From the NCBI GenBank assembly GCA_020832655.1, contig JAFIEF010000009.1:1-64000 (forward strand): a stretch of 64,000 nucleotides of DNA, given 5' to 3'. The stretch comes from Paracoccaceae bacterium. GTDB taxonomy: Bacteria > Pseudomonadota > Alphaproteobacteria > Rhodobacterales > Rhodobacteraceae. Shown here piece after piece: positions 5,230-23,651 of this stretch (within the stretch, counting starts at the first letter, position 1; every line of letters begins with the position of its first letter). The position numbers and the translations under genes were made by a program. The notes below the pieces were generated by a model. That model did not search any database and was not told the origin of the DNA. It worked only from the letters and a program-made list of their open reading frames with translations.

Positions 5230-5235
5230 ACCTTC

Positions 5236-7546: not shown

Positions 7547-7558
7547 CGAAATTTCGTT
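7545..7558. repeat. 14-bp perfect palindrome AACGAAATTTCGTT
   Basis: The palindrome overlaps the stop codon of the gene before it. A related sequence in inverted orientation, TCCAACGAATTTTCG, lies at about 7660-7675, just upstream of the sigma-like gene. Such paired palindromes around a promoter gap suggest an operator for a dimeric repressor, or a control site for the sigma-like factor. Confidence 0.4.
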
Positions 7559-7598
7559 GGGCCTGACTGAAAAAAGTTCAAAAAAATCGCCTGCTCAT

Positions 7599-7633
7599 AA
7601 CCGCTGAAATCTGCTGGATTCAGCGGTTTTTCT
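7599..7633 (+). terminator. Rho-independent terminator
   Basis: AACCGCTGAA (7599-7608) and TTCAGCGGTT (7619-7628) form a perfect 10-bp stem with a 10-nt loop, followed by TTTC TTTG. It ends the transcription unit that begins at 5299, before the sigma-like gene. Confidence 0.75.
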
Positions 7634-7729
7634 TTGTCGTGAAGCCGTCCGAGCCGCCAATCCAACGAATTTTCGCCGGTGCCAGATACTCGGGCCGCGT
7701 GCCCGTCCATCTGGACCAAGGCGAAACTC

Positions 7730-8341
7730 ATGGAGCAACTTCACAAGCTAACCGATCCCACATCCCGTATTTCCCGCAATATCCGTATCCGTGCCGGACG
7801 GCTTGCGCGTTCTGGCGCCGTGCCCGGGCTTGATGTCGATGATATCGAGCAGGAACTGCGCCTCGATCTGATCAGGCGGGCCCATAATTTCAATCCGGAG
7901 AAGTCGTCCTTCGACACCTTCGCCGATCGGGTGATTAAGAACCAGATCGCAACGTTGGCGAGCGCCACAAGGGCGATGCGCGCAGAAAGGGTGATGCAAT
8001 CCCTGCATTCTCACGTCGGCGAGAACGAAGCCGACGATGGTCTGACGCTGTCAGATATTCTGCCCGAAACCGCCGCGATTCATCCTGTTGACGAATTTGC
8101 TTTGGCGCATGCGCCTGGCCTTCGGGGTGATGTCGCAAAGCTACTGAATGCCCTCTGCCCATCATCGCGCCGGGTCGCAATTGCACTTAGCCATCTCAAT
8201 ATCGCCGAAGCCGCCCGTGTGCTCGGGCTTCATCGCAGCACGGTCTATGATCGGCTCGCGGTCATTCGCCAGACCGCGCAAAGCCTCGGTTTGGATGGGT
8301 ATTTCGAGGCTATCCCGACAGTTTCGCCTGCCCGCCGGTAA
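7730..8341 (+). CDS. Sigma-70-like factor of the mobile element
   Basis: 203 aa from ATG 7730. Region-2-like sequence is seen near residues 30-70 (LDVDDIEQELRLDLI, then FDTFADRVIKNQIATL), and a C-terminal region-4-like HTH near 160-185 (NIAEAARVLGLHRSTVYDRL). This is a small two-domain sigma factor as found in prophages and integrated elements of alphaproteobacteria. It follows a terminator and precedes the recombination-replication genes, so it may switch on the downstream half of the block. In-frame codons upstream to 7679 lack a good ribosome site. Confidence 0.72.
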   Translation: MEQLHKLTDPTSRISRNIRIRAGRLARSGAVPGLDVDDIEQELRLDLIRRAHNFNPEKSSFDTFADRVIKNQIATLASATRAMRAERVMQSLHSHVGENEADDGLTLSDILPETAAIHPVDEFALAHAPGLRGDVAKLLNALCPSSRRVAIALSHLNIAEAARVLGLHRSTVYDRLAVIRQTAQSLGLDGYFEAIPTVSPARR

Positions 8342-8367
8342 GTGAAAGCACGAAGATAACCAAATTC

Positions 8368-8478
8368 ATGCCGGGCCTTCGGGGGAATGCAAAACCCTCT
8401 GGGAAACACCCCGACCGCAAGCTCCAGGGCGGCGTCGGGCCCGGCAGTTGTCACCTCAATGACGATCCCTGGGCATGA
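8368..8478 (+). CDS. Possible 36-aa small protein
   Basis: The frame starts MPGLRGNAKPSGKHPDRKLQ and ends in HLNDDPWA. It fills most of the 155-bp gap between the sigma-like gene and the next gene, and its composition is unbiased enough to be coding. The ribosome-binding site is weak. It could be a real small phage protein; no motif is recognised. Confidence 0.35.
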   Translation: MPGLRGNAKPSGKHPDRKLQGGVGPGSCHLNDDPWA

Positions 8479-8496
8479 CGAAACAGGAGCAGAACA

Positions 8497-8805
8497 ATGT
8501 TCACATCATCTGCAAAGAACACATCGCCTTTGAAGAAACTACGCCAGTCGAGTTGGCTGAAAGAGATTCCTGACTGCATTGATACTCCCGCAATTGGAGG
8601 AAGGCTCGCTCGCAGCGTGCCGATCGAAAGCGCGACCTTGGACCAGATCGCCTTCGCGCTTTTGCCCCTAGAGCAGCACCGCCGAGACATTGGCAAGAGG
8701 ATCATGGCACTTCAGGAAGTCATTTCGATGGCCCGCAGGCAGGGGGCACTAGGCGCGGAGATCGCGATCATTGCTGCCTCGAAGGATATGGAGGCACACA
8801 AATGA
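8497..8805 (+). CDS. Small hypothetical protein upstream of the RecA-like ATPase
   Basis: 102 aa with a clear ribosome site (CAGGAGCAGAACA before ATG). The central part is helical (LDQIAFALLPLEQHRRDIGKR). It overlaps the following ATPase gene by 4 bp. No catalytic motif is seen. Likely an accessory of the element's recombination module. Confidence 0.55.
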   Translation: MFTSSAKNTSPLKKLRQSSWLKEIPDCIDTPAIGGRLARSVPIESATLDQIAFALLPLEQHRRDIGKRIMALQEVISMARRQGALGAEIAIIAASKDMEAHK

Positions 8806-9698
8806 GTGCGCCTTTCACAATCGCCCCGCTGAAAATCATCACCGCTGACGAGCGCCTCAAGGAAAACCGCGGCATCAAGGGTGTCCTGACCGGTATTTCG
8901 GGCATCGGCAAGACAAGCCAGCTCTGGACGCTGGATCCTGAGCGCACCCTGTTCATGAACCTTGAGGCCGGGGAACTGGCAGTACAGGGCTGGCCAGGTG
9001 ACGAAATACGCATCCGCGATTGGGAGCGAGCCCGTGATCTTGCCTGCTGGATCGGTGGACCGAATCCCGCGATGCGTGATGATCAACCTTACAGCCAGAG
9101 CGACTACGACCGCGTCTGTGCCGCCTTCGGCGATCCGACCATCCTCGACAAATACGAGACCATATTCGTCGACAGCATCTCGGTCGCTTCTCGCATCTGC
9201 ATGCAATGGTGCAAGGGGCAACCGCAGGCGCAATCCGACCGCAGCGGCAAGGCCGATATGCGTGGCGCCTATGGCCTTCTCGGCCAGGAAATGATCGCCT
9301 GGCTGACACACCTTCAACATACACCACGCAAAAACATCTGGCTTGTCGGCCTGTTGGACAAGAAGGTCGACGATTTCGGCAAGCCTTATTTCGCGCTGCA
9401 GATCGAAGGGTCCAAAACCGGCCTCGAACTGCCCGGCATCGTCGATGAGGTCATCACGCTTGCTGAAATCCGACCCCAAGAGGGCGATCCATTTCGGGCT
9501 TTCGTTTGCACCACAATCAACGATTTCGGGTTTCCCGCGAAAGACCGCAGTGGCCGTTTGTCGATGATCGAACAGGCCCATCTCGGTCGGCTGATGGCCA
9601 AGATCCGTGCCGGTCAGGGACCGACCACAAGATCGGGCCTCGATTTCGACCTGCCCGAGGCAGCACGCCAATCCGACCCCATGACGAAAGGAGCCTGA
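8802..9698 (+). CDS. RecA-like ATP-binding protein (Sak4/AAA_24-like)
   Basis: 298 aa. Walker A GISGIGKTS lies at residues 31-39 and a Walker B-like strand TIFVDSIS near 120. The fold and size fit the phage RecA-like single-strand annealing or recombination ATPases (Sak4 type). It sits directly before a probable ssDNA-binding protein gene, a pairing common in phages, where the two promote strand annealing together. The start is coupled by ATGA to the preceding gene. Confidence 0.78.
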   Translation: MSAPFTIAPLKIITADERLKENRGIKGVLTGISGIGKTSQLWTLDPERTLFMNLEAGELAVQGWPGDEIRIRDWERARDLACWIGGPNPAMRDDQPYSQSDYDRVCAAFGDPTILDKYETIFVDSISVASRICMQWCKGQPQAQSDRSGKADMRGAYGLLGQEMIAWLTHLQHTPRKNIWLVGLLDKKVDDFGKPYFALQIEGSKTGLELPGIVDEVITLAEIRPQEGDPFRAFVCTTINDFGFPAKDRSGRLSMIEQAHLGRLMAKIRAGQGPTTRSGLDFDLPEAARQSDPMTKGA

Positions 9699-9702
9699 CC
9701 CC

Positions 9703-10335
9703 ATGGCTGACAAAATGGATTTCAACGGCGCGGACAGCCAGGACGCCGCCTTCGATCTCATCCCCGCGAACACGCTGGCCAAAGTGACGCTCACCATTCG
9801 CCCCGGCGGCGCTGGCCCGGAGGGCTGGCTGACCCAGAGCCGCACAAGTTCCGCAATGTACCTGAACGTCGAGGCGATAGTGCTTGATGGTCCCTACGCG
9901 CGGCGCCGGGTTTACACGCGCATTGGCTTCAAGGGGAAAAATGTCAACGAGCGTGGAGAGGATACCTATGCAAACCGGGGCCGCGCCCTGATCAGGGGCA
10001 TTCTGGAATCCGCGCGCAACATCAAGGCCAACGATCAGTCGGAGACAGCACGTGCGGCGCGTTTGATCCGGAGCCTTGGTGATCTCAGTGGGCTGGATTT
10101 CGTGGCCAAGATCGGCGTCGAAAAGGACCGTGACAATCCCGACGATGCCGGACGCAACGTGATCAAGGCTGCGATCGGCCCCGATCATGGCCAGTATGTC
10201 GTGGTGATGGGGGCCGCGCCCACGCCGTCCGCGCGCCCCAACACCGCGCCAGCCTCGCCGCAGAGCGGCAACTATGCAGCGCCGCCAACCGCAGAAACCG
10301 CCAGTTCGGGTAATGCGCCGTTCTGGGCGCGCTGA
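9703..10335 (+). CDS. Probable ssDNA-binding protein (DUF669-like)
   Basis: 210 aa. The N-terminal two thirds look like a beta-rich OB-type or DUF669 domain (LIPANTLAKVTLTIRPGG, SAMYLNVEAIVLDGPYARRR). The last 50 residues are a proline/alanine-rich disordered tail ending NAPFWAR, like the flexible tails of SSB proteins. It follows the RecA-like ATPase by 4 nt and precedes an SF2 helicase, consistent with a replication or annealing module. The assignment is by pattern and context. Confidence 0.65.
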   Translation: MADKMDFNGADSQDAAFDLIPANTLAKVTLTIRPGGAGPEGWLTQSRTSSAMYLNVEAIVLDGPYARRRVYTRIGFKGKNVNERGEDTYANRGRALIRGILESARNIKANDQSETARAARLIRSLGDLSGLDFVAKIGVEKDRDNPDDAGRNVIKAAIGPDHGQYVVVMGAAPTPSARPNTAPASPQSGNYAAPPTAETASSGNAPFWAR

Positions 10336-10346
10336 GGGAGGCTGTC

Positions 10347-12029
10347 ATGATTCCTCGTGATTATCAGCGGGCAGCTGTCGATGCCGCGCACGACCGGACG
10401 GCCGAACATGGCAATACCATGCTCGTGCTACCAACCGGCGCGGGTAAAACCGCCATCGCAGGCTTTTATGTCGGTGAACAGGCTGATCGGGACCGCAATG
10501 CCAGGATGCTGGTGCTTCAGCACACCGACGAGCTCATCGAGCAGAACCGTTCGGCAATAGGCCATGTCTCGGACCTCGACACCTCGGTGGTCAAGGCCGA
10601 ACAGGATTGCTGGGACGGACGTGTGGTCTTTGGCAGCGTGCAGACGCTGGCGCGCGGCGATCGACGTGGCAACATGCCGGTAATTTCCCACTTGATCATC
10701 GATGAATGCCACCGCGCAGCTGCCACCAGTTATCAGTCCGTGATCGAGCATGTGCGCGGCCTGAACCCGAATGCCAAACTGCTAGGGCTGTCCGCCACAC
10801 CCGGGCGCGGCGATGGCCAGTCCTTGCGCAAGACCTTCAGCAACGTGGGTTACCATCTTCGGATCGGCACGCTGATCGCACGAGGCCTGTTGGTGCCGCC
10901 CAGGACCTTCACCATCGACCTTGGCGTCGATGACGAGCTGTCCGGGATCAACAGCACCGCCGGTGATTTCGACATGCGCCAGGCCGACAAGGTGCTGAAC
11001 CGCTCGGTGCTCAATGAGGCCGTCGTCGAACACTGGAAAGAAAAGGCGGCAGATCGGCGCACCATATTTTTCTGCTCCACGGTCGCCCATGCCGAGGCGG
11101 TGGCTGATGCATTCCGCGCTGCAGGCGTCACAGCGGGCATCATCACTGGCGAGATGAGCGCCCGGGCGCGTGCAGACCTCATCGCGCGGTTTGATCGCGG
11201 GGAGGTCCAGGTCCTGACCAATTGCATGGTGCTGACCGAGGGTTTCGACAGCCAGCCCGTGGGTTGTATCGGCATTCTGCGACCCATGCTGCACAAGGGA
11301 ACCTTCATCCAGGCCGTCGGGCGCGGGCTTCGGCGCGTTGATCCCGAGCGCTATCCCGGCATAATCAAGACGGATTGCGTGGTGCTGGACTTTGCCGGTG
11401 CCGCATTGCGTCATGGATCGCTGGAACAGGATATTGGTCTCGACGAAGAGGATACACCCAACGGTGCTCAGCCTTGGAAAACCTGCCCATCCTGCGAGGC
11501 AGAGTTGCCGCTCAGTGCATTAAACTGCGATTTCTGCGGTCACGTATTCACGCGTGAGATTGGCGAGAAAAGGCTGCTGACTGATTTCGGCATGACCGAG
11601 ATTGACCTGCTGGATCGCTCACCGTTCTCATGGGTCGCGCTGCACGAAGACCAACAGGCGCTCATGGCCAGTGGGTTTCAGGGCTGGGCCGGGGTGTTTC
11701 ATGATGGCGCGCTTTGGCACGCGCTCGGACGCCCAAAGGGCAAAGCCATCCGCACATTGGCGGTAGGAACGCGCGTGCAGGCATTGGCGGCGGCTGACGA
11801 TTTCTTACGTGAAACAGAAACCAGCAGCGCTGCTGCCAAGAGCAAGCGGTGGATCAATGATCCCGCAAGCCTGCGCCAGATCGAATTGCTCCACAAGGTC
11901 GGCTTCGGAAGCACCGGGCTTGATTTCGGCCTTTCCAAATATGCTGCGAATTGCCACCTGAATTTCCGCTGGAATAGCGCGGCGATCAAGGCAGCTATTC
12001 TGAAGGATCTGGGGCAGCGCGCGGCATGA
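10347..12029 (+). CDS. DEAD/DEAH-box SF2 helicase with zinc ribbon
   Basis: 560 aa. Motif I LPTGAGKTAI is at about 28-37, motif II IIDECH near 117-122, motif VI QAVGRGLRR near 322. A C-terminal zinc ribbon follows near 379 (CPSCEAELPL ... CDFCG). This is the type III restriction / UvsW-like helicase fold often carried by phages, where it remodels replication and recombination intermediates. No nuclease domain is visible, so it is not itself a restriction enzyme. It overlaps the next gene by 4 bp. Confidence 0.85.
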   Translation: MIPRDYQRAAVDAAHDRTAEHGNTMLVLPTGAGKTAIAGFYVGEQADRDRNARMLVLQHTDELIEQNRSAIGHVSDLDTSVVKAEQDCWDGRVVFGSVQTLARGDRRGNMPVISHLIIDECHRAAATSYQSVIEHVRGLNPNAKLLGLSATPGRGDGQSLRKTFSNVGYHLRIGTLIARGLLVPPRTFTIDLGVDDELSGINSTAGDFDMRQADKVLNRSVLNEAVVEHWKEKAADRRTIFFCSTVAHAEAVADAFRAAGVTAGIITGEMSARARADLIARFDRGEVQVLTNCMVLTEGFDSQPVGCIGILRPMLHKGTFIQAVGRGLRRVDPERYPGIIKTDCVVLDFAGAALRHGSLEQDIGLDEEDTPNGAQPWKTCPSCEAELPLSALNCDFCGHVFTREIGEKRLLTDFGMTEIDLLDRSPFSWVALHEDQQALMASGFQGWAGVFHDGALWHALGRPKGKAIRTLAVGTRVQALAAADDFLRETETSSAAAKSKRWINDPASLRQIELLHKVGFGSTGLDFGLSKYAANCHLNFRWNSAAIKAAILKDLGQRAA

Positions 12030-12225
12030 AACGCCCCAACCCTCTGCACCCTGACCAGATGTCACCCGCAGAACGCCGCGCCGAGCTTTGCGGCTTGCTG
12101 GCGCTTGGGTTGATCCGGCTGCAGCAGCGGGAACGGGGGCAACAATCTGCAGATACCAGAGAAGGTTGCCTACACTATCCGGCCGACCAATGGCGTCATG
12201 AAACTCCAACTCACCGGAGAAACCC

Positions 12226-12229
<4 letters not shown>
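12026..12229 (+). CDS. Small conserved protein of the recombinase module
   Basis: 67 aa. It starts MKRPNPLHPDQMSPAERRAE and is followed by a hydrophobic helix (LCGLLALGLIRLQQRE). This type of short protein commonly precedes DUF2924 and recombinase genes in alphaproteobacterial mobile regions, as far as I recall. It overlaps the genes on both sides by 4 bp. The function is unknown. Confidence 0.55.
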
Positions 12230-12677
<448 letters not shown>

Positions 12678-12681
<4 letters not shown>

Positions 12682-13985
12682 CAAAACCTGTCGTCAGAAA
12701 ACTCCGCTGCGCGGTCTATACCCGCAAATCCTCTGAGGAAGGGCTGGAGCAGGAATTCAACTCGCTCCACGCCCAGCGCGAAGCCTGCGAGGCTTACATC
12801 GCCAGCCAGCGCTCAGAGGGCTGGGTACTTGTCCGCGATCAGTATGACGATGGTGGCATCTCGGGCGGCACGCTGGAACGGCCCGGATTGAAGCAGCTCA
12901 TGGAGGATATTGAGGACGGGTTGGTTGATGTCGTGGTGGTCTATAAGATCGACCGTCTCAGCCGTTCGCTGGCCGACTTCGCCAAGCTGGTCGAGGTGTT
13001 CGACCGCAATGGCGTCACCTTCGTGTCCGTCACTCAGCAGTTCAACACCACCACATCGATGGGTCGGCTGACGCTGAATATCCTGCTGTCATTTGCGCAG
13101 TTTGAAAGGGAAGTCACCGCCGAACGCATCCGCGACAAGGTCGCTGCCAGCCGTAAGAAGGGTATGTGGATGGGCGGGGTGCCACCCTTCGGCTACCGCG
13201 TCGAGAACCGCAAGTTGCTGGTGGATGACGAATCCGCCACGCATGTGCGCTGGATATTCGCCCGCTTTATCGAAATCGGGTCCTGCACAGTGCTGGCGCG
13301 CGAAGTGGCCAAACGCGGCATAAGGACGCCGCGCGGCAACCAAATCGACAAGAAATACCTGTACCGGCTGCTGAATAATCGCGCCTATATCGGCGAGGCG
13401 GTGCACAAGGGCGAAAGCTATCCCGGCGAGCAGGACGCGATCATTGACCGCGAATCATGGGACAAGGTCCACGCCATCCTGACGGAAAGCCCCCGGAAGC
13501 GCGCCGCGCGCACGCGTGCGGATACGCCCGCGCTGCTGAAAGGGCTGCTGTTCGGTCCTGATGGCGCGGCGTTTTCGCCGACCCACACGCGCAAGGGCGG
13601 GCGCTTGTACCGCTACTATGTGAGCCAGACGGTGCTGAAGCATGGCGCTGGATCCTGCCCAGTGGGTCGCGTGCCAGCAGGTGAAATTGAAGCCACCGTC
13701 ATCGATCAGCTACGCGCCGTGTTCCGCCAGCCCGAGATCGTTGCGGGGACATGGAAGGCGGCGCGCGCGCAGGATGGTGAGATAGCCGAGGCTGACGGGT
13801 GCAATGCCCTGCAGCAGCTCGACCCGCTGTGGGAGGAACTCTTCCCCGCCGAGCAGGCCCGCATCGTCGCGTTGCTGGTCGAGCGCGTCGACATCGACAT
13901 CGATGGCTTGAATGTCCGGCTCCGGATGAACGGTCTGACCGAGCTCGCGCGCGAAATGATGACTGATTTCGGAGCAGCGGCATGA
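12678..13985 (+). CDS. Serine recombinase (resolvase/invertase family)
   Basis: 435 aa. The N-terminal catalytic domain has YTRKSS (Ser18 the likely nucleophile) and VVYKIDRLSRSLADF. It is followed by SFAQFEREVTAERIRDK, a Recombinase domain (PPFGYRVENRKL ... GIRTPRGN) and a degenerate zinc-ribbon-like part. The size lies between small resolvases and large integrases. It could move the DNA that carries the cargo to its right. A longer in-frame start at 12522 is within DUF2924 and is less likely than the ATGA-coupled ATG. Confidence 0.88.
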
Positions 13986-14386
13986 CCCACGCGAAGCCAG
14001 CACCGGATACGGTGACAGTGCATGTCCCGTTCCGCCTCGTGAAACGAGGCGGCCGCAAGGAAATGCACCTGCCGGATGGGGCATCAAGCCAACGCAAGAT
14101 GGACAACACTTTGGTCAAGGCGCTGGCCCGCGCGTTCCGATGGAAGCGGATGATGGAAACAGGCGCGTTCGCGACAATCGCCGAGTTGGCTGCGCACGAG
14201 GGGATTGCACCGTCCTACATGACCCGACTACTACGGGTCACGCTGCTCGCGCCGGAAATAGTTCAGACTATCCTCGACGGGCGGCAAGGGGCCGAAATGA
14301 CACTGGCGCGACTTCTGGAACCATTTCCAATTGAGTGGGAAGACCAGGCGCTTGACGCTGCCGTTGCGTGGAACTCTAGGTTTTGA
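13982..14386 (+). CDS. HTH protein accompanying the recombinase
   Basis: 134 aa. It starts MTHAKPAPDTVTVHVPFRLV and carries an HTH-like segment (TIAELAAHEGIAPSYMTRLLR, about residues 60-80). It is tied to the recombinase by a 4-bp overlap, and a protein of this type usually closes the DUF2924-recombinase set. It probably binds DNA as a regulator or recombination accessory. The high-GC element DNA ends here; the next gene has markedly lower GC. Confidence 0.65.
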   Translation: MTHAKPAPDTVTVHVPFRLVKRGGRKEMHLPDGASSQRKMDNTLVKALARAFRWKRMMETGAFATIAELAAHEGIAPSYMTRLLRVTLLAPEIVQTILDGRQGAEMTLARLLEPFPIEWEDQALDAAVAWNSRF

Positions 14387-14412
14387 GGTGGCTGGCGCAT
14401 GAATTCGATAAT
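14383..14412 (+). promoter_or_regulatory. Candidate promoter of the methyltransferase
   Basis: TTGAGG (14383-14388) and GATAAT (14407-14412) with 18 bp between them lie just after the HTH gene and 33 bp before the proposed start at 14446. It would give the methyltransferase its own expression, as needed for a self-protecting modification gene. Confidence 0.4.
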
Positions 14413-14445
14413 ATGGTAGGCGGAACACTCGAAAGGAAGCTTGGA

Positions 14446-15555
14446 ATGTCGAATTGGTTTGAAACACACACAGCGAGTATCGTGGCTGACCGACCAGTTG
14501 CGCATGATGCCTCCTTGCCCGTCTATTCCACCAAACTTGGTGAAATGTATCAGGGGCAGTCCGAGGACGTTCTTCGTGCCAAACCTGTAAAAAAATATGC
14601 GGGCCAGGTTCAACTTGTGATGACCTCACCACCTTTCCCGTTGAACACCAAAAAAGCCTACGGGAATCGAACGCAGGATGAATACGTTGAATGGTTTGCC
14701 GATTTTGCGCCGATTTTGCGCGATATGGTGACCGAAGATGGGTCGATTGTAATTGAAATCGGTAACGCGTGGATGCCTGGACGTCCCGTAATGTCAGTCC
14801 ACGTTATGAAGGCTTTTCTGCAATTTTTGGAAAAGGGTGATTTACATCTTTGTCAGGAATTTATTTGGTATAACCCTGCACGACTTCCGTCACCTGTAGA
14901 ATGGGTCAATAAAGAACGATCTAGAGTCAAAGATGCGTTCACCCGCATTTGGTGGATGTCGCCGAACGAGCGGCCGAAAGCCGACAATCGAAAAGTTTTG
15001 CGTGAATACAGTCCTAGCATGAAGCGCTTGATCAAGTCTGGAAAGTACAACGCCGGCCCACGGCCCTCAGCTCACAATATCGGGGCAGAGAGTTTTAAGA
15101 CCGACAACAAGGGGGCGATCCCGCCAAATGTTGGTGATGTTGACGGCATTCCTTCGATCGACGGAATGATTTCGCAAGAGCAGTTCGAACAAACGTTGCA
15201 ACTTGTCTCTGAGTTCGAGGGAGCCACGAACCTAATCAAGGCTGCCAACACAGTATCAAGCGATGGCTATCGCAAATTTTGTCTCGATCAAGGAACTCAG
15301 GTTCACCCGGCGAGAATGCCAAGGAGTCTGGTAGATTTTTTTGTACGGTTTCTTACCGACGAGGGTGACACGGTTCTCGACCCATTTGCAGGTAGCAACA
15401 CGACCGGCGCGGTTGCCGAAGATCTCGGACGCAAATGGCTCGCGGTTGAAGCGGATTGGAAATACGCAGCGCACTCGATAGGCCGTTTTTCTCCAACTAG
15501 CCTCTTATCCACGTGTCAAGGCATCACGTTCGAACCTCGCCGGAGTGGGCGATAA
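14446..15555 (+). CDS. DNA methyltransferase, beta class, M.PvuII-like (probably m4C)
   Basis: 369 aa. Catalytic motif IV is TSPPFPL near residues 61-67; SPPF rather than DPPY is typical of N4-cytosine enzymes such as M.PvuII. The SAM-binding motif I, LDPFAGSNTTG, is near 311, after the target-recognition region, so the order is that of the beta class. Strong ribosome site AAGGAAG lies before ATG 14446; a frame back to 14383 overlaps the previous gene. GC content is clearly lower than in the genes to the left. It faces the five-gene operon at 15648-22893 and has no adjacent cognate type II endonuclease, so it may supply self-protection for that system. Confidence 0.85.
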   Translation: MSNWFETHTASIVADRPVAHDASLPVYSTKLGEMYQGQSEDVLRAKPVKKYAGQVQLVMTSPPFPLNTKKAYGNRTQDEYVEWFADFAPILRDMVTEDGSIVIEIGNAWMPGRPVMSVHVMKAFLQFLEKGDLHLCQEFIWYNPARLPSPVEWVNKERSRVKDAFTRIWWMSPNERPKADNRKVLREYSPSMKRLIKSGKYNAGPRPSAHNIGAESFKTDNKGAIPPNVGDVDGIPSIDGMISQEQFEQTLQLVSEFEGATNLIKAANTVSSDGYRKFCLDQGTQVHPARMPRSLVDFFVRFLTDEGDTVLDPFAGSNTTGAVAEDLGRKWLAVEADWKYAAHSIGRFSPTSLLSTCQGITFEPRRSGR

Positions 15556-15647
15556 ATAACTTCAACTGCATAGGTAAGAGCCAGCCATGCGCAGGTGCGT
15601 CAATTCCGCCGAAAATCCGACCTTCCCCAAAGCTTACCGAAAGTTAT

Positions 15648-18233
15648 TTACTCATCAGCTTCATCAGCTTCATCAGCTTCATCAGCCAAATCTCGCTCCT
15701 TTATCTCCCAGATACCATCTCCAAGGTACCGCGTACCCGACGACGAAAGCGCATGCGACACAATACTCTTGTCAATCTGCCGTTCAGTGATGAATTCTAG
15801 CCAGTCCTTAATGTCCGAAATTTTCATTGGACCCGGAACCTGTTCCATCAGCCTATCGAGCGCTGTTTTAAGTGTAACCCGCCTCGAGTCGCCCCATTCC
15901 TTCAAGTAAGCGAAGCGGCCAACGCCGATTGCTATCCGATCATCTAGTGCAGCAATGCTAAAGATGGCCTCCGCGTCCATCGAAGGCGAGCAATCGATGT
16001 ACTGTTTCACTTCGTCTAAGTGTATTCCGGACCCCTTTTTCCGAAGCGCGCTGAAAACGTTGTCGACGAGCGCTGGTTGTTGGTCTCGCTTCACTACAAG
16101 ATCTCGGTCATTTAGCCCCCAAAGACCTCGTCCCACCCGCAGTACTGGGTCACGGTTCCAGATCTGAAAGGTGCTGTTGACTCCTCTGAATTCAGAAAGA
16201 CGCTTGTTGATTTCACCCGTTGAAAGTGGCCCACCAGCAGCATCCAAAATCCCAATGACGGCATCTCTAAGGTCAACGCGATGCTGTTCATCCGCTTCGG
16301 GAAGCACCCAGACTAGTCGACCAAGGTACTTCAATGGCGATTTCATTTGTAGCGCAACACTAAGCCCGTATTTATCCAGTCTTTCTCTTAGAGCGCCATC
16401 TATTTCTTGTAACTCCGAAACTAATTCGGATGCGTGCCATTGTCGGCCATCGGCCTGGTCCGCCACTATATCGGACGCCATTTCCGCCACTTTCTCAATC
16501 TCGGCATCGGATAAGGGGACGTGTTTCCTGAGACCGTAGGTTCCTCGACCAAGTAGAACGCCTACGTTAGCAACAGCGTTGCGAATCTGAGACTCACTGA
16601 TTTGCCTGCCCGAGATCTCACTAACCATCTGGGCAACCTCGCTCGTATGGAGCGGGTTTGGGCTATCTTCTAGGACAACCTGAACCAGTTGCTCTATGCC
16701 ACGCCCGTAGGCAGTGAGGGTCCGCGAGTCCGCAGGTCCGGAAAAATGACAAAGGCGTGATGCCTCAGTCCAGAGAAGTGGCGCCAATTCTTTCCCCTGA
16801 TCAGGAAAGAAGCTTTCAATTGTCTGGCGGCATTCGTTCTCCGACCAATTTAGGTCGACCGCGCTCTCGAGAAATTGCCGTGCTTCCCTTAGTTTTTCGT
16901 TCCAATTTTCCTGATCGACACGGGATACATAACTAACATTACCGACTTTCAAAACATGGAAACGCTTTTCGCAAATCGTGTCTATCAGATACGCAAGCAC
17001 GTTTTGTTTGCCGGAAGTGCCTCTAAACCAATCATCCACGACCTCCAATCCGAAGAGAGGCAATGGTTTTTCTCGAGACTCCAAGATAACGCTTAGCCGG
17101 TGTCGCATCACATCATCCCAGATCTCTTTTGTGATGATACGTTCAAGTGATCGCTTCTCGATTTGACGAATGCGTTCGCGTGTTATGCCGTAATCAACTC
17201 CGAGATCCTCGAGTGTTCGTGGCGGTTCATTGAAGCCCATTCGACCAAGGAGAACCTTGCGATCCCGTTCTTCGATTTCATTTAGTGTTTTGAGAAGGTT
17301 TCCAATCAATCCGAGCGAAATAGCCGCGGATGGTTCGCCAGTCTCGCCACGTACGACATCCTTTTCTCTGTTATTTCCCAATCCCTGGTCAAATAAGTTC
17401 GTCGAGACGTGTGTATCGACCACTCCACGACCGAGGCCCTCAAGTAGAGCTTCGGCTAAGTGCTTTTTTGAATGTCTTCCAAAATTTTTCAGGCGAAAAA
17501 GCTCCGCCTCTGAATAGTGGTCTAGATCAGAGATGATCTCTATCCGGTTGTTGCTAAAAACGTTCCTTAGACGAACCGTCAGAGACAATCTTCCGACTTC
17601 AAGAGACCGAAGCCACGGCGGCGCACAGCGCACAATGTCCAACGGATCGGTTGGGTCATGAATCAAAAAGTCATAACGAAACTGCCCAAGCGAAGTTCGA
17701 ATTGAATCCTGCAGATCTCCCTCTCTTTCAAGGTAGCTTTCTTCATCATAGATACCCAACTGAATCAAGTTTCCCTCAAACTCGGGAGCCACTGTCAAGA
17801 ATTGAGACACCCATCCACGCGCAACGGGTACTTGATTAGCACCGTTCGCCGTGTCGCCGCTGCTCGAAAATCCGGTTTGAGAAATCGAACGAACAGTTGG
17901 ATCCTCAATACTGTATCCCCAGCCTTCAAGAGCGAGAAATATAGGCAAGTCACCCGCTTCGGCGACCTTTGCTACTGAGCATTTGAAAGGCAGTGGTAGC
18001 ACAAATCTGGCACCCTGAGTTACGAGCAGCCGCCCTTCGTTGTTGCTAGCAACTTCATTGAAAACGCGTGCCGGCGGCCGCCCGAAACCTACATGTATGA
18101 CACCTGCAAGTGCTCCATCAGCCAGTAGCCTGGTCCATTCCTCGTGAACCTCTTCCAATTTCTGGGAAACAAAGATTTTCCATTCAGAACCTGGTTTTTG
18201 GGTCATCAAAAAGATTCTGAGCGGAGAGTTCAT
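15648..18233 (-). CDS. Alpha-CTD / sigma region-4-like fusion with winged-helix repeats
   Basis: 861 aa. Residues about 232-270 (ISDLDHYSEAELFRLKNFGR) resemble the helix-hairpin-helix of the RNA polymerase alpha C-terminal domain. Residues about 337-365 (RTLEDLGVDYGITRERIRQI) match sigma-70 region 4. The rest has several short segments like HARE-HTH or winged-helix modules (HTSEVAQMVSEISGRQIS; LSTGEINKRLSEFRG). The architecture implies DNA or polymerase binding, with no visible catalytic site. It is the last gene of the operon, coupled by 4 bp. Its C-terminus ends in a DEA repeat encoded by a 9-bp tandem repeat. A role in target recognition or in sensing transcription is possible but is inference. 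Confidence 0.7.
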   Translation of the reverse strand: MNSPLRIFLMTQKPGSEWKIFVSQKLEEVHEEWTRLLADGALAGVIHVGFGRPPARVFNEVASNNEGRLLVTQGARFVLPLPFKCSVAKVAEAGDLPIFLALEGWGYSIEDPTVRSISQTGFSSSGDTANGANQVPVARGWVSQFLTVAPEFEGNLIQLGIYDEESYLEREGDLQDSIRTSLGQFRYDFLIHDPTDPLDIVRCAPPWLRSLEVGRLSLTVRLRNVFSNNRIEIISDLDHYSEAELFRLKNFGRHSKKHLAEALLEGLGRGVVDTHVSTNLFDQGLGNNREKDVVRGETGEPSAAISLGLIGNLLKTLNEIEERDRKVLLGRMGFNEPPRTLEDLGVDYGITRERIRQIEKRSLERIITKEIWDDVMRHRLSVILESREKPLPLFGLEVVDDWFRGTSGKQNVLAYLIDTICEKRFHVLKVGNVSYVSRVDQENWNEKLREARQFLESAVDLNWSENECRQTIESFFPDQGKELAPLLWTEASRLCHFSGPADSRTLTAYGRGIEQLVQVVLEDSPNPLHTSEVAQMVSEISGRQISESQIRNAVANVGVLLGRGTYGLRKHVPLSDAEIEKVAEMASDIVADQADGRQWHASELVSELQEIDGALRERLDKYGLSVALQMKSPLKYLGRLVWVLPEADEQHRVDLRDAVIGILDAAGGPLSTGEINKRLSEFRGVNSTFQIWNRDPVLRVGRGLWGLNDRDLVVKRDQQPALVDNVFSALRKKGSGIHLDEVKQYIDCSPSMDAEAIFSIAALDDRIAIGVGRFAYLKEWGDSRRVTLKTALDRLMEQVPGPMKISDIKDWLEFITERQIDKSIVSHALSSSGTRYLGDGIWEIKERDLADEADEADEADE
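15652..15687. repeat. Four 9-bp tandem repeats at the gene 3' end
   Basis: TCATCAGCT is repeated head to tail (three exact copies and one ending in C), encoding ADEADEADE on the minus strand at the C-terminus of the alpha-CTD/sigma-like protein. Copy-number changes would keep the frame and only change the acidic tail length. Confidence 0.85.
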
Positions 18234-18610
18234 TGGGCTGATGCGTCGTCCACACTCTTCAGAAGGGCTGTAAAATCCAGCTGCCCTTGCGAGGCCTGTT
18301 CATACAGTTCTCGAACGCCCCAATCCGCCAGGCGCTCGGCGATTCGATACACTGAGATCGTCGTTAGTTCGTCTTCGTACAAAGCTTCAATAGCGCTCCT
18401 TATCAACTGCCCGGGGTCAAGCGATCCCACGTTAAACAATGTCTTACGCTTTCCGATCTCTGAGGGAACAATACCGGAAGCAACAGCGAAACTGATCGCA
18501 AATCGATAGCCGTCCAGTTTTTCGGCAAAAATTTCTTGCTCTTTCATCTGATCAAGGAGATCGTCGGCGTGCTCGGAAAGACCGACCGTTGTGACTTCAG
18601 ATTCAATCAT
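18230..18610 (-). CDS. Small helical protein of the DndD-like operon
   Basis: 126 aa, all-helical. The pattern LDQMKEQEIFAEKLDGYRFA, ISFAVASGIVPSEIGKR and later SVYRIAERLADWGVREL reminds me of the roughly 130-aa family called dnd system-associated protein 4, but this is from memory and must be checked. It overlaps the genes on both sides by 4 bp. It lies between the SMC-like ATPase and the sigma-like protein and is probably a structural partner of one of them. Confidence 0.65.
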   Translation of the reverse strand: MIESEVTTVGLSEHADDLLDQMKEQEIFAEKLDGYRFAISFAVASGIVPSEIGKRKTLFNVGSLDPGQLIRSAIEALYEDELTTISVYRIAERLADWGVRELYEQASQGQLDFTALLKSVDDASAQ

Positions 18611-20592
18611 AGTTTGGACCTTTCGATTTTCGTCTGTGTCTCTGAGACCTCGATTAGATCGTAAACCGCGCCGACACGGTCCTTAATGGACTCGAGATCT
18701 GTCTCTCGACGAATCTCGCCACCATGAACGAACAAAACGAACTGAGTGGTCACCGACGGTAGGTAGCCCAAGATGTTGTTCCGGTGCTTCGGGTCGAGGC
18801 GGCCGAATGGAGTGTCCATCACCACTGGTCCTGCCGATCGGCCCGTCCTGTTGAGGCCATCTATTAACGATAGTGCGACGATCTGTTCAGCACCGGCACT
18901 TCGCATAGAAACGGTGCGTCCATGGCTGTCGATAATACTCAGACCATAATTTTCGTTTATCTGGAGACCTTGATAGGCGTCTTGCGTCGTCATTTCGCGG
19001 AAAGCGTCGCTTGCCAGTTGCTCGACTTTGCCGCGAAGCCGGTCACGGAGCTTTTCAATACTGGCAGAGAAAGCTCTTTCCAAATTAGAGGTTAGCGCAA
19101 CCTTCTTTGTGGTCTTGTCAGCCCGAGCAGATGCCACGCCTTCAATTGCCTTTCTTGCGATCGCGAGATCTTCTTTAACCTTCCGGATATTGGTTCTCAC
19201 GCTGTCAGTATCGCTGTTGAGCTTACCTTCTTCCTTCAGAAGATCGGCAATCCGCGACCGTTTTCGAGAAATCTCGGTTGCGTCCTGCTCATCGATTTTA
19301 TCCTCTATGTCTTCAATCTCGTTCTCCGCTTTCTGAAGCTTGATCTGCGCGAGATTCACGTCCTTTTGGATCTGAAACAACCGCTGAGCCGCCCCAGATC
19401 CACGAATTTTTTCCAGATTGCCAAGTTGAGCTGATAATTCATTAAGTCGGGCGCTGACATCCTTCTGAGCCATAAGCCCAGCTTGCATTTCACCGAGTGT
19501 TGTCTTTAGAGTTTCGCGAATTTGACCCGTGACCGGCTGCAGACACGTTGGACAGGAGTCAGTGTCAATCAACTCCCTGAGACGATCAATGTCCGCCTCA
19601 AATCGGGAGGTTGTCTTTATTTCTCCAGTGACGCGAAGCTGCTCCTCCCGCAGTTTTCTCTTCTTTTCGCCTAGTCGTGCGTCGAGCATGTCCTTCCAAG
19701 CAGAGGCAAGTACTTCATGGCGCTCAGTGTACTTCCGAGCAATGGTGGATTGGCTTTCGTCGCGGTCTGCTCGAGCGGCATCAAGTTTGGCCTTTAACGC
19801 AAGAACCGTCGCGGCAGCCTCAATTTCGTCTTCAAGGTTTTCGCGTTCCTCGCGAATTCCAGAGATCGAGGCTTCAAGATACTTTTGATCAGCTTCAAAG
19901 GCCTCTAGCTTTTCGTTCAAAGCGTCAGTGCGCAATGCTTGTGCTTTCAGGCCCTGGATGTGAGCCAGTGCCTTGGTTTGGGCTCGCGAAGCGTTCTTTA
20001 GAATGGTGCCGAGTTCATCGCGTCCTCTGACGAGAGTCGGAACACCTAAAGCTTGCTCAATCGCGTCTTTGATCTGGCGCCCTTGTTCGCTGCCTTCGAA
20101 CAGGAGCTCCTCATACTCCTGAAGCAGCTCGCCGTCAAAAAGGAAGAATCGCGACGTCTGCTCGGGGGCAACTTGATCGAGTTCATAGGCCACTTGGTTG
20201 CCCGCGACGACAGAACCATTTTTCTTCAGTAACACTGAAGTCTGCAGGTCTTCCGAACGGGAAGGACGCACGACTGGGGAGCGGCGGTCCGCCGTGCGGC
20301 GAAGCTCGAAGACATCACCGTTAGCTTCGAATTCAACAAACACTTCAACGCGCCAGTTGTCCTCGAGCAATGCGTCCTTATTGACGATATCTATCAGAGG
20401 GATCAGGCGGGAATGTCTCCCCAACGCCTTTTCATAGAAGCCCCAACGCAGCGCGTTGAGAAGCGAAGTCTTCCCCCTCATGTTGTCGCCAAAGACGAGC
20501 ATCACATTTCGGGACTCATCTTTAGGAAAATCAATAACAGCCTGGTCTTTATAAGGCATGAAGTTTTTCATTGTCAGACGGATGAGCTTCAT
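18607..20592 (-). CDS. DndD-like SMC/Rad50-type ATPase with zinc hook
   Basis: 661 aa, the usual DndD length. Walker A GDNMRGKTSLLNAL is near residues 35-48. A long coiled coil is broken near residue 347 by a zinc hook CPTC (DSCPTCLQPV). The second half has the signature region MRSAGAEQIVALSL and Walker B VVMDTPFGRLDP. The MDTPFGRLD string is characteristic of DndD-like proteins. Such ATPases clamp or translocate on DNA and couple ATP use to a nuclease or modification enzyme. The sulfur-transfer genes dndA and dndC are absent here, so a phosphorothioation role is unlikely; a restriction motor is more plausible. Confidence 0.82.
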   Translation of the reverse strand: MKLIRLTMKNFMPYKDQAVIDFPKDESRNVMLVFGDNMRGKTSLLNALRWGFYEKALGRHSRLIPLIDIVNKDALLEDNWRVEVFVEFEANGDVFELRRTADRRSPVVRPSRSEDLQTSVLLKKNGSVVAGNQVAYELDQVAPEQTSRFFLFDGELLQEYEELLFEGSEQGRQIKDAIEQALGVPTLVRGRDELGTILKNASRAQTKALAHIQGLKAQALRTDALNEKLEAFEADQKYLEASISGIREERENLEDEIEAAATVLALKAKLDAARADRDESQSTIARKYTERHEVLASAWKDMLDARLGEKKRKLREEQLRVTGEIKTTSRFEADIDRLRELIDTDSCPTCLQPVTGQIRETLKTTLGEMQAGLMAQKDVSARLNELSAQLGNLEKIRGSGAAQRLFQIQKDVNLAQIKLQKAENEIEDIEDKIDEQDATEISRKRSRIADLLKEEGKLNSDTDSVRTNIRKVKEDLAIARKAIEGVASARADKTTKKVALTSNLERAFSASIEKLRDRLRGKVEQLASDAFREMTTQDAYQGLQINENYGLSIIDSHGRTVSMRSAGAEQIVALSLIDGLNRTGRSAGPVVMDTPFGRLDPKHRNNILGYLPSVTTQFVLFVHGGEIRRETDLESIKDRVGAVYDLIEVSETQTKIERSKL

Positions 20593-20810
20593 TTCAGCCC
20601 CTCCGGTTCGGCTGACAGTTTCTCAACTTCGGAATCAATCAGTCTTTCCATCTCAGCCATCGGCACTGAGCGGTCAGAAGTAAACTGATTGTTCTTTTGA
20701 ACAAAGTAGCACGCTCGAATAAGGTCTTCCGGCAAGTCTGGAGCAACCTCCAAGCGTAGGCCCAAAAGTATTTCGAGTGCAATGTCTGGTCCTGACCGTT
20801 CAGTCATCAA
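20589..20810 (-). CDS. 73-aa protein of the DndD-like operon
   Basis: Acidic and helical (GPDIALEILLGLRLEVAPDL; FVQKNNQFTSDRSVPMAEME). Its stop overlaps the ATPase start by 4 bp, and its start overlaps the helicase gene end by 11 bp, so it is clearly part of the operon. I recall database entries for small proteins of this size next to DndD-like ATPases called DNA modification system-associated small protein, which fits. No catalytic motif is visible. Confidence 0.65.
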   Translation of the reverse strand: MMTERSGPDIALEILLGLRLEVAPDLPEDLIRACYFVQKNNQFTSDRSVPMAEMERLIDSEVEKLSAEPEGLK

Positions 20811-22893
20811 CTTCTACTCCGTCTCGAGCTGCGAGGTCGTCTATGTCGATGCCCATTTCCATGGCAATTGCCCTCAATTCTGCTCCGGCTGACTTATTGA
20901 TAGCACCGTTGGCGAACTCAATTGCACGTATCATCTCCCCACGGAGGAGGCCAAGTTGCTCGGGTTCCGACTCCGAGTTCAATGGTCGCACGATGGCGTC
21001 ATGAATCTGTGCCATGTTCTTACCAGGAGAAATCCGCAATACTCTTCCTCGTCGCTGAATGAATTGCCTTGGGTTTTGCGATGACGCCAAAATCAGAGCG
21101 TGGGAAACCTTGGGTATGTCTACTCCCTCGTCGAGGCACTTTATTGAAACCAGAATGCCGCCAAACTTGTGGAACCATTCCATCGTGGCCACTCGATCGC
21201 CAAGCATGTTTGAGTGGTACTCGATAGTTTCGATTCCCGCCACCCGAAGCGCGTTTACTACATCGCCAAGTTGCTCACTGTCCTCGCAGTAGATCAGCCA
21301 ACTCTGACCGTCGCGGAACTCTCGTTTGATCGTCCGAACCGCAAGATCCACCTTCGATGTCGCCTTCTTGGCAATCCTTGAACGTTGAATGAGCAGCATT
21401 TTTGCCCGTTCGCTTAACAGTTTTTTTCCATTGGCATCAGTGCTGCTTCTTGCGATTTCCTTTGTTATTCTATTTGTGAAATCGCGCCATTGGTCCGCTT
21501 CATCTGCGTTAAGGCTGATTGCGTGCGGGAAATACTGATAAGGCACCAGTCGACCGGCTTTCATGGCATCGCCAAGCGTGATTGGTGGAGGCACAACACC
21601 GCCGAAGTAGTCCATGAGCCTTTTTGTTCCCTCAGTATCGCCGTGGCGCCGTGGTGTCGCGCTCAGTCCAAGTCTTAGGCCCGCCGCTATCTTGAGCGCA
21701 CGCGAATTAATGGGACTGCCTATCTGATGAACTTCGTCAACAACCAGCAGCAATTCGTCGCTCTCGGCGACCCCTGCCAAAAAGAGATCAGTTGCAGCGG
21801 TGGGCATCATCGCCAATGTCACCCGTGGTCCTAATTCCAGATCCGCAGTTGTCATGCTCTTGAGCCTACCGTGCAACTTCCAACGGTTTTGACCATCACC
21901 AGCCATCATCAAGGCCGCGTCTGGTATCTCATCGCTGATCTCTTCAGCCCACTGATGCAGCAGCAGCCTGCTGGGCACGAGAACAAGGGCAGGTTTGCCG
22001 GTCTTGACGTGATCCCTAATTGCTACGATCGCTGTGAAGGTTTTGCCAGTTCCAGTAGCGTGCTCAAAGATGCCACGGCAACCTTGCCTTCGCCAAGCAT
22101 CAAGTGCCTCGGTTTGGTGTGGCAGGGGTTGTCGGCGTGACGTCGGGGTGACTGGGACGCTTTCCATGATTTCTTCGATGCTCTTAGCCGCGAATTTTCG
22201 TAGATAGATTTCGGCCGTCTCGGGGAACGCCGAGACCGTGACGCCAGGTTCCTTTCCCGACCAGAGTGTCGCGAAATGGTTTCGATGTTTCTCGGTCCGA
22301 ATCCTATCGGAAGGCCCATCCCAATCGCAAAAAACCTCAATTGCTTCGAAATTTCCTTCTGCGTGCCAGCCGCTCCATGTTTCATTTGTTGATCCACGGA
22401 AACTTACGGTGTGACCAACGCCATCCGTAAAAAGCCCAATCTTTTCGTGATACATTCCATTTCCAGAATTCAATTCGGCCAGCCTAACCTCTAGTGCTCC
22501 ACAAGAAATAAGAGTTGCTAGGGCTTTGGCAGGAAAGGCTGTCGAGGGCTCAGCCAGCAATCGATCAAACTCTTCAATGACCGCTGAGGCCAAGACTTCG
22601 TCGCGACGCGCGTAACCGCCTGAAATACTTCTGACATCCTCGTCACTGAGGCTTGGCGAGCAGATCAGTTGAATTCGACCTCCGCGACGCGCGAACTCGA
22701 GAAGTGTCCGTCCAATGATCAGTAAAACAGAAGAACGAAAATAGCCAACGGCTCTTTGATATAGATCTGCATTTCGAAGGCATTTTTTGTAAAATGTCTC
22801 GACCGGATCATTCTTTGTAGATCGGTATTCAGTATCAAGGTGGAGTTTTGATAAATCCCCCCTAAAAGCAATCTCCGCCGCGTTACTAATCAT
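20800..22893 (-). CDS. PLD-nuclease / SF2-helicase fusion (restriction-type)
   Basis: 697 aa from MISNAAE; upstream in-frame ATGs at 22908 and 22926 are possible. The N-terminal domain has a single phospholipase-D (HKD) motif: HEKIGLFTD (His149, Lys151) followed by RGSTNE (Ser168, Asn170), as in NgoFVII- or BfiI-type nucleases. It is followed by a complete SF2 helicase: ATGTGKTFTAIVA, VVDEVHQIG, LGLSATPR and QRRGRVLRIS. The fusion resembles DNA-phosphorothioation-linked restriction enzymes and type III-like restriction subunits. It is the first gene of the operon and probably the effector that translocates on and cuts DNA. Confidence 0.82.
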   Translation of the reverse strand: MISNAAEIAFRGDLSKLHLDTEYRSTKNDPVETFYKKCLRNADLYQRAVGYFRSSVLLIIGRTLLEFARRGGRIQLICSPSLSDEDVRSISGGYARRDEVLASAVIEEFDRLLAEPSTAFPAKALATLISCGALEVRLAELNSGNGMYHEKIGLFTDGVGHTVSFRGSTNETWSGWHAEGNFEAIEVFCDWDGPSDRIRTEKHRNHFATLWSGKEPGVTVSAFPETAEIYLRKFAAKSIEEIMESVPVTPTSRRQPLPHQTEALDAWRRQGCRGIFEHATGTGKTFTAIVAIRDHVKTGKPALVLVPSRLLLHQWAEEISDEIPDAALMMAGDGQNRWKLHGRLKSMTTADLELGPRVTLAMMPTAATDLFLAGVAESDELLLVVDEVHQIGSPINSRALKIAAGLRLGLSATPRRHGDTEGTKRLMDYFGGVVPPPITLGDAMKAGRLVPYQYFPHAISLNADEADQWRDFTNRITKEIARSSTDANGKKLLSERAKMLLIQRSRIAKKATSKVDLAVRTIKREFRDGQSWLIYCEDSEQLGDVVNALRVAGIETIEYHSNMLGDRVATMEWFHKFGGILVSIKCLDEGVDIPKVSHALILASSQNPRQFIQRRGRVLRISPGKNMAQIHDAIVRPLNSESEPEQLGLLRGEMIRAIEFANGAINKSAGAELRAIAMEMGIDIDDLAARDGVEVDD

Positions 22894-23407
22894 TGTTGCT
22901 CTTTGCATTTCTCGGCTTTGATACAAGCCTTCATTGTTGGACCAACGTTCTGTCTTCTATCCTCGGACCATTGCCAGCTTCGGTCAACCCCGGTTCTACT
23001 CATCGGCCGCGGTTTGAAGGACTCGATTGGTGCTATGGTATGGCTTTCGGTTCGTTAGGATGCACCTCGGGAGCCGGCGGGGCAAGCAGTGAAACGGTTG
23101 CACGTTTTCAAGAGCCATTCGGGGATTTCTGATGCTCTGGCCAGTGGTTCGATTTGTGTTCCACAAGCCGAAACGACTGACGTCGAAGTGCTCAGATCGG
23201 CAGGCCAAAAAACTACGAAAGTTCAGCTGCTTGCAAGCTATTCACCAAAATCCCGCAGTCATGAGGTCCAGAGAATGTCGGCCCGTAGAGAACGCTTTGG
23301 TCCATCCTCACATCGAGGCCAGTGCTCAGCCCCTCCCGTATAACCCTCGAAAACAACGGAAAAATCCGGCCGCGGCCGGATCGGGAGAACGCTTTCGCAA
23401 GGGCAAG
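22894..23407. other. Gene-free gap between the defence operon and tRNA-Ser
   Basis: About 510 bp with no convincing gene. Open frames are short, antisense to each other and lack ribosome sites. The promoter of the minus-strand operon should lie near 22900-23000. The only clear element is the tRNA terminator at 23359-23381. No integrase gene or tRNA fragment copy is visible. Confidence 0.55.
23359..23381 (-). terminator. Terminator downstream of tRNA-Ser
   Basis: The 18-bp palindrome ATCCGGCCGCGGCCGGAT (23364-23381) is followed on the minus strand by TTTT. It lies 27 bp beyond the encoded CCA end of the tRNA. Confidence 0.7.
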
Positions 23408-23497
<90 letters not shown>

Positions 23498-23651
23498 ATA
23501 TCGTGGTTCGTAGTCGGCACCAGCCCCGAATTCAAGAGCCGTTGCGGGATATTCAAGACATCCGGACGCGGGGCGGGTCTGCGGTCATGCGTGGCTTTGT
23601 CGGCTGCGGTAAAGGGGTATCGACAACATCCAATTACAATCATTCCAATTA

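Follow-up and report, generated by a model that had tools for sequence, protein, structure and literature searches.

A 64,000-nucleotide stretch of DNA from a Paracoccaceae bacterium (assembly GCA_020832655.1, contig JAFIEF010000009.1, positions 1-64,000 of the forward strand; hereafter the window) carries six neighbouring genes that we interpret, with a probability of about 0.72, as one restriction-modification-like defence cassette, in which an effector of the PbeABCD type would work with an N4-methylcytosine (m4C) self mark replacing phosphorothioate. Family matches and the recurrence of the set in five other loci suggest more than a chance assembly. The pairing of PbeABCD with a methylase has already been proposed from gene neighbourhoods (Xiong et al. 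2019; Rakesh, Aravind and Krishnan 2024; statements on these and other cited papers refer to parts of their text) and is ordinary in kind. What is unusual here is a conserved fifth component, of which no description was found, together with signs of cassette exchange.

A methyltransferase gene faces a five-gene operon of the PbeABCD type

The six genes are located as follows:

14446-15555, plus strand: methyltransferase (an alternative TTG start is possible at 14383)
15648-18233, minus strand: fifth protein, 861 residues, provisionally named PbeE
18230-18610, minus strand: protein in the PbeD position, 126 residues
18607-20592, minus strand: PbeC, ABC ATPase, 661 residues
20589-20810, minus strand: PbeB-like small protein, 73 residues
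20800-22893 or 20800-22926, minus strand: PbeA, PLD-helicase

Adjacent genes of the minus-strand set overlap by 4, 4, 4 and 11 bases and the five look like a single operon, to which the methyltransferase gene is convergent; this is the arrangement that an earlier reading, made from the sequence only, had described. Family matches were significant for four of the six proteins, weak but fitting for the 73-residue protein and absent for the 126-residue protein.

The PLD-helicase matched the PADLOC family PbeA with an E-value of 1.3e-208, and the zinc-hook ATPase matched PbeC with 8.7e-261, against 1.3e-46 for the top DndD model. Matches of the same two proteins to TIGR04095 (dnd_restrict_1, E=3.2e-94) and TIGR03185 (dndD, E=3.2e-39) were under the family cut-offs. 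PbeA joins a PLD/HKD nuclease-like domain to a superfamily 2 (SF2) helicase; its motifs H149-x-K151, GSxNE, DEVH and QRRGR are invariant in five copies, and G[TS]GKT occurs in all. In PbeC the zinc hook C-P-T-C (residues 347-350), the P-loop GDNMRGKTS and the signature RSAGAEQ are likewise invariant in five copies. One further locus, L021, was omitted from all alignments because of its frameshifts.

Neither small protein had a PADLOC hit. The 73-residue protein showed a weak match, below cut-off, to Sp-DndD (PF20306, E=0.0019), a model described as a small protein of certain Dnd DNA modification systems, and a homologue occupies the equivalent position in L002, L009, L019, L020, L021 and L029. 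As a small protein encoded between A and C and conserved in relatives, it is regarded as PbeB-like.

For the 126-residue protein, a profile built from five copies matched the open reading frame (ORF) after PbeC in four of eight distant PbeC loci (L022, E=1.3e-15; L030, 1.2e-7; L028 and L117, 1.3e-3 each), and the ORF in L117 corresponds to TIGR04062, 'DNA phosphorothioation-associated protein 4'. The AlphaFold model of the protein is weak (pLDDT 60). Foldseek aligned this model with DndE structures 4lrv (probability 0.80, template modelling scores 0.44/0.53, E=0.38) and 5wtu (probability 0.69); among the 50 rows listed, all non-DndE structures had a probability of 0.21 or less and no E-value was under 0.15. 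No relative was confirmed among the 44 stretches in a profile search of viral contigs. The protein is a putative PbeD by its position and the DndE-like fold predicted for it, and pbeD is the least certain assignment of the set.

On these family matches and positions, the operon is assigned as pbeA-pbeB-pbeC-pbeD plus one further gene, that is, a PbeABCD (CxC-ATPase/DndE) system. The sequence-only reading had proposed a defence-type set with a base methyltransferase, a zinc-hook ABC ATPase and a PLD-helicase, which is supported at the sequence level. Its view that no named system fits was not borne out: PADLOC names PbeA and PbeC, and the pairing with cytosine methylases had been noted before (PMC6459918, PMC10853773).

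The methyltransferase and the predicted self mark

The methyltransferase matched PF01555, and its motif TSPPF stands ahead of DPFAGSNTTG, which we take to be the order of beta-class methyltransferases. All five aligned copies have TSPP and DPFxGSNTT; the residue after TSPP is F in four of them and Y in L019. Comparison with M.PvuII (PDB 1boo) gave E-values of 1.9e-89 with a profile and 1.8e-74 with the single sequence; the best PADLOC family was MTase_II. The SPP[FWY] motif combined with homology places the enzyme, by sequence criteria, in the M.PvuII family, and its product is likely to be N4-methylcytosine because the PDB annotates M.PvuII as an N4-cytosine methyltransferase. The two proteins share the TSPPF motif and align in two blocks that span most of their length. 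They differ in about 30 extra residues between the aligned blocks and in the linkage of the window enzyme to a multi-subunit effector.

DndC (TIGR03183, E<=0.001) had no match in the 3.24-Mb assembly that contains the window, nor in the DNA examined of L002, L009, L019, L020, L021, L027, L028, L029 and L030; this search of Pbe loci excluded L022, L023 and L031. The set is thus Dnd-like without dndC, as had been read from the sequence. By this search the genome lacks the DndC that would mark a Dnd phosphorothioation system, and Dnd proper was rejected.

The operon could depend on phosphorothioate from another source in the cell, or be an inactive solitary copy, and inactivity is listed by Xiong et al. 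among the explanations of solitary pbeAC (PMC6459918). We consider this very improbable, given that the genome has no DndC match, that the six frames are open and contain the named motifs, and that an almost identical set is retained in Salipiger.

Linkage of the six genes

Relatives of PbeC were called close when their best piece was about 49% identical or more. Close loci were the window, Salipiger bermudensis L002 (also L116), a plasmid of Aurantiacibacter atlanticus (L009), L019, L020 and L021. Homologues of all six genes were present in 6/6 of these, the window included, so that the neighbourhood recurs in five other loci. The methyltransferase gene is convergent and downstream of the operon in the window and L002; in L009, L019, L020 and L021 it lies upstream and has the orientation of the operon. 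The suggestion that such operons might usually lack the methyltransferase did not hold for the close loci, all six of which have a linked one; dependence of Pbe on this self mark is predicted only. L020 was found only via the 861-residue query, and L002, L009, L019 and L021 (also) via PbeC, so the fairer count for the fifth gene is 4/4 besides the window.

In a sample of 244 genomes of the order, close PbeC was found in three genomes, the 861-residue family in the same three and the methyltransferase family in eight including them. The hypergeometric p against close PbeC was 4e-7 for the 861-residue family and 2e-5 for the methyltransferase family, or 3e-5 and 7e-4 with the window genome and Salipiger counted once, the Salipiger copy being treated as a recent transfer. 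A fourth PbeC carrier in this sample, G679, is of the distant type. The 861-residue query hit seven genomes in a family sample of 394, three of them with Pbe (the window genome, G408 and G436) and one, G484, with a truncated copy and no Pbe. Three others (G560, G610 and G759) were rejected as relatives of the fifth protein: they match only its part with similarity to the C-terminal domain of the RNA polymerase alpha subunit (alpha-CTD) and to sigma region 4, and had no Pbe or methyltransferase match. The close family is rare (1/398 genomes in a phylum sample, the window genome), and the PADLOC model was matched in 4/385 genomes of a class sample, again with the window genome included.

Some copies are damaged. 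L021 (G376) is decayed, with frameshifts in the methyltransferase, PbeC, PbeD-like and fifth genes; the fifth gene of L009 is interrupted by an IS3 element.

The cassette lies in a mobile element and may have exchanged its parts

The cassette is cargo of an element with the following features:

12025-23408: mobile element core, with a DUF2924 gene, a serine recombinase, a 134-residue gene, and the methyltransferase and Pbe cargo
12522-13985, plus strand: large serine recombinase ORF (Resolvase PF00239, Recombinase PF07508, Zn ribbon PF13408), the real start of which is probably more internal than 12522
23408-23497, minus strand: tRNA-Ser (TGA), found by ARAGORN, at the element end

The right end of the core coincides with the 3' end of the tRNA-Ser. 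The GC content per 1-kb bin was 0.49-0.53 across 14001-23000 and 0.56-0.72 in the remaining bins of the window, which agrees with the earlier description of lower-GC DNA between a recombinase and a tRNA.

Positions 12024-23492 of the window (about 11.5 kb) are collinear with Salipiger L002 at 90.3% nucleotide identity. A tRNA-Ser stands at the same end in L002 (GGA rather than TGA), L020 and L129. L020 matches the left module (12025-14338) and the right end (23235-23491) at about 80% identity and has its methyltransferase on the opposite side of the operon relative to the window. L129 matches 12493-14338, where its contig starts, and 23240-23500; its methyltransferase is 71% identical to that of the window and 85% to that of L020. 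The window showed no direct repeat of the tRNA end that could be an att site, and in the same-genus genome G561, in which the right flank is spread over three contigs, no empty site was readable. The recombinase of Salipiger is split across two reading frames.

The methyltransferase tree contained two supported groups, {window, L002, L020, L129} and {L009, L019}. The path length from window to L020 was 0.54 for the methyltransferase and 1.0 for Pbe, and from window to L019 it was 1.78 and 0.91, respectively (trees were computed with one model without mixtures). The Pbe tree did not reject the grouping of window, L002 and L020 (approximately unbiased test, p 0.11) or that of L009 and L019 (p 0.29); hence a conflict of topology with the methyltransferase tree is not shown, and only the distances are disproportionate. 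Methyltransferase path lengths that are out of step with those of Pbe suggest that methyltransferase and effector have been exchanged between cassettes. A further sign of exchange is L129, where this recombinase and tRNA-Ser element pairs its methyltransferase with an unrelated 747-residue protein and not with Pbe.

This apparently intact, mobile element of 11.4 kb offers a compact test object for methylation-based PbeABCD, and its relatives supply natural swaps of mark and effector.

Evidence weighed against a single cassette

Several observations speak against reading the six genes as one unit. In the sample of 244 genomes, PbeC was not matched in five of the eight carriers of the methyltransferase family. 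L129 (G445:C17) shares the recombinase and the tRNA-Ser end but has, in place of Pbe, a 747-residue protein (L129:2334-4577). At L130:6178-10526 (G647:C19) a PvuII-like methyltransferase is followed by HerA-like (675 residues) and NurA-like (447 residues; slightly under the Pfam cut-off) genes, apparently a third type of neighbour for this methyltransferase family. Among the eight distant PbeC loci (L022, L023, L027, L028, L029, L030, L031 and L117), the methyltransferase profile had no match in three (L023, L030 and L117), and seven lack the fifth protein, found only in L117. That homologue was missed by the 861-residue search of the 244 genomes, the count of three there being therefore a lower bound. 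A copy of the fifth gene in G484 (L018:10139-12052), about 51% identical and truncated at both ends, had no Pbe gene or methyltransferase match within 16.4 kb. As to single proteins, the PLDc_2 score of PbeA was sub-threshold (22.8 bits against a Pfam cut-off of 27), and the 126-residue protein gave chance-level hits only to DndE hidden Markov models and no match to canonical DndE by hhalign (probability 0.3).

In the other distant loci the methyltransferase profile was clear (L027, L028 and L029) or weak (L022 and L031), and PbeA was matched in all of the eight except L022 and L031.

One alternative is that the enzyme is an orphan, or protects the recombinase element, its adjacency to Pbe being a by-product. 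The methyltransferase frame overlaps the 134-residue gene of the recombinase module if the TTG start at 14383 is used, and its tree group accompanies the recombinase element in 4/4 members, even without Pbe in L129. However, L009, L019 and L021, which had no recombinase match in the DNA examined, still have a methyltransferase gene immediately ahead of PbeA in the same orientation; the enzymes of L009 and L019 belong to the other tree group, and all six close loci have one. On balance we regard this alternative as improbable, and keep the cassette of PbeABCD effector and m4C mark as the preferred reading.

At the limits used, searches of Pfam, PADLOC and NCBIfam gave no hit for the 747-residue protein of L129. 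Its gene is convergent to the methyltransferase, GHKL-ATPase-like motifs were seen by eye, and it is a candidate for an alternative partner of the same mark.

The fifth protein

The product of the last gene of the operon is organized as follows:

residues 1-190 (approximately): N-terminal region without family match
residues 211-263: alpha-CTD
residues 317-366: sigma region 4
residues 508-848 (approximately): winged-helix (HARE-HTH-like) repeats

Alpha-CTD (PF03118) and sigma region 4 (PF04545) were found in 6/6 aligned members, two of them partial, and HARE-HTH weakly in 3/6. The first two domains had been recognized in the sequence-only reading, which also called the protein sigma-like; that term needs correction, as Sigma70_r2 (region 2) was absent at E<=1 in members that have Sigma70_r4. 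Without region 2 the protein would not be an ordinary sigma factor and should not open promoters, and its identity as a sigma-70 family factor was rejected.

The top-conserved block of 20 residues is 341-360, with a mean pair identity of 0.64 in five rows; L002 was omitted from this profile as a near-duplicate, of the L009 protein only the part preceding the IS3 element was aligned, and the L018 copy is truncated. A helix of sigma region 4 within this block, TRERIRQIE, has exactly the sequence found in the host RpoD. R221, N224, G252 and S255 of the alpha-CTD do not vary among six rows, and RNA polymerase alpha chains have the same residues at the aligned positions; in E. coli alpha their counterparts are presumably R265, N268, G296 and S299, which contact DNA.

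In the C-terminal half, hhalign gave probabilities of 86 for repeats R1-R3, 93 for R1-R5, 75 for R3-R5 and 36 for R3-R4. Pairs with R2 (0.3-13), R1-R4 (0.5) and R4-R5 (0.1) were weak, against 1.2 or less for a non-repeat control segment. R1, R3 and R5 are thus supported at the level of sequence; a fourth and a fifth repeat would be guesses. In L020 a HARE-HTH match that is weak and below cut-off (E=2.3e-4) overlaps with R1. HARE-HTH has been proposed as a reader of modified DNA. A PDB search with R1 and R3 returned nothing significant (best E 0.44), and the AlphaFold model of the whole protein, made from two near-identical rows, had a pLDDT of 31.

The homologue in L117 (G679) has 1068 residues (hhalign E=9e-17 over 367 columns) and directly precedes PbeA. 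It stands beside PbeA, PbeC and PbeD, no PbeB being identified in this locus, and beside DndB, C, D and E with a DndA-like gene slightly under cut-off. Association with Pbe under two mark chemistries argues against a reader specific for m4C. The target of the fifth protein is more likely promoter-type DNA than the m4C mark, because a homologue accompanies a phosphorothioate-linked Pbe and the helix that would read the -35 element is kept.

It is possible, if doubtful, that the protein is a transcriptional regulator of the cassette only, with no part in the attack on the target. The domains recognized in it are DNA-binding modules only, its gene is last in the operon and TRERIRQIE is shared with RpoD. 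A length of 824-1068 residues among homologues and several winged-helix repeats are large for a simple regulator.

A more ambitious role, which we judge unlikely on present sequence data, is that the fifth protein lets the defence read promoters: it would land PbeC/PbeA on unmarked incoming promoters, or would be a bait for phage proteins that attack precisely the alpha-CTD and sigma region 4 of the polymerase, triggering the nuclease. If true, this role would be independent of mark chemistry, m4C or phosphorothioate. If the protein is part of the machine, restriction would be linked to promoter recognition, a route by which restriction-modification-like systems could find foreign DNA.

A count of promoter-like sites in the region was uninformative (5 observed, 5.6 expected from shuffled sequence). 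In viral contigs, the top matches of the 861-residue profile among 80 of 165 relatives were partial and around sigma region 4; of those 80, L032 was the one looked at further. A DEA repeat at the C-terminus of the protein is encoded at window positions 15651-15686 by four copies of a 9-bp unit (TTCATCAGC on the plus strand), with one mismatch in the first copy. In Salipiger the protein has 858 residues, three fewer, an in-frame length variation.

Proposed mechanism

In the cassette as we picture it, the methyltransferase would mark one motif on the host chromosome with m4C, and PbeC would scan DNA together with the DndE-like PbeD. Where the motif is unmarked, PbeA would be engaged, translocate, and either cut by its PLD domain or jam replication. 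The fifth protein would dock the complex on incoming promoters, or control the operon.

The chance that PbeABCD blocks replication instead of cutting, with a PLD domain that is structural or a nickase, falls a little short of even. The archaeal DndCDEA-PbeABCD blocked replication and left viral DNA uncut (Xiong et al. 2019, PMC6459918), whereas HxK and GSxNE are invariant in five PbeA copies and Rakesh et al. favour cleavage (PMC10853773).

Comparison with described systems

In Haloterrigena jeotgali PbeABCD acts with DndCDEA and is phosphorothioate-dependent; for 155 of 320 solitary pbeAC, methyltransferase genes were located no more than 10 kb away, and a pairing with methylation was suggested (Xiong et al. 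2019, PMC6459918). The window set has the same PbeA (PLD, Res and helicase), small PbeB, PbeC ATPase and small PbeD in identical order. It differs from the archaeal set in being bacterial, in an M.PvuII-like methyltransferase that replaces DndCDEA and in the extra 861-residue gene.

Rakesh, Aravind and Krishnan (2024, PMC10853773) treat PbeABCD and the CxC-ABC-ATPase/DndE system as one and note cytosine-5 and circularly permuted cytosine-N4 methylases in some such neighbourhoods. Those systems resemble the window set in their HKD and SF2 helicase, small protein, zinc-hook ATPase and protein in the DndE position. Their methylase systems are described with an MTaX1 gene, not an alpha-CTD/sigma4 protein, and the hook cysteines of the window PbeC are spaced CxxC (CPTC), not literally CxC.

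An alpha-CTD/sigma4 fifth gene was not found described in the portions of the Pbe literature covered; the figures and supplements of PMC10853773, or Krishnan et al. 2020, may show it. In the portion of PMC10853773 text covered, 'sigma' is used a single time, of DndH, and the only mention of 'RNA polymerase' is in the references; the gene is not described in the covered parts of PMC12707154, PMC9252829, PMC12839542 and PMC9523054. MzaA of mzaABCDE is described as a sigma factor (PMC9523054), and the likeness of the fifth protein to it is limited to sigma region 4 (NCBIfam MzaA, E=8.5e-11 over about 65 residues, 41 bits against a family cut-off of 800).

DISARM, BREX, MADS and Lamassu were rejected, as the sequence-only reading had also held that they differ: their markers were not the best PADLOC hits (25 best families per protein), DrmD and BrxH being weak matches to PbeA.

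Neighbouring genes and further loci

Directly left of the shared element, window positions 1750-12029 contain phage- or satellite-like replication genes (a D5_N primase, a sigma-region-2 protein, AAA_24 and a DEAD helicase), none of which was matched in L002 within the 3 kb past the shared stretch. L027 and L028, IMG/VR contigs classed as viral, carry PbeA and PbeC, the latter followed by a small ORF, but no fifth protein; each has two adjacent methyltransferase-profile matches upstream. L117 had no match to the recombinase of the window, and its phosphorothioate-linked Dnd/Pbe locus ends no more than 1.5 kb from a tRNA-Ser (GCT) at L117:19298-19387.

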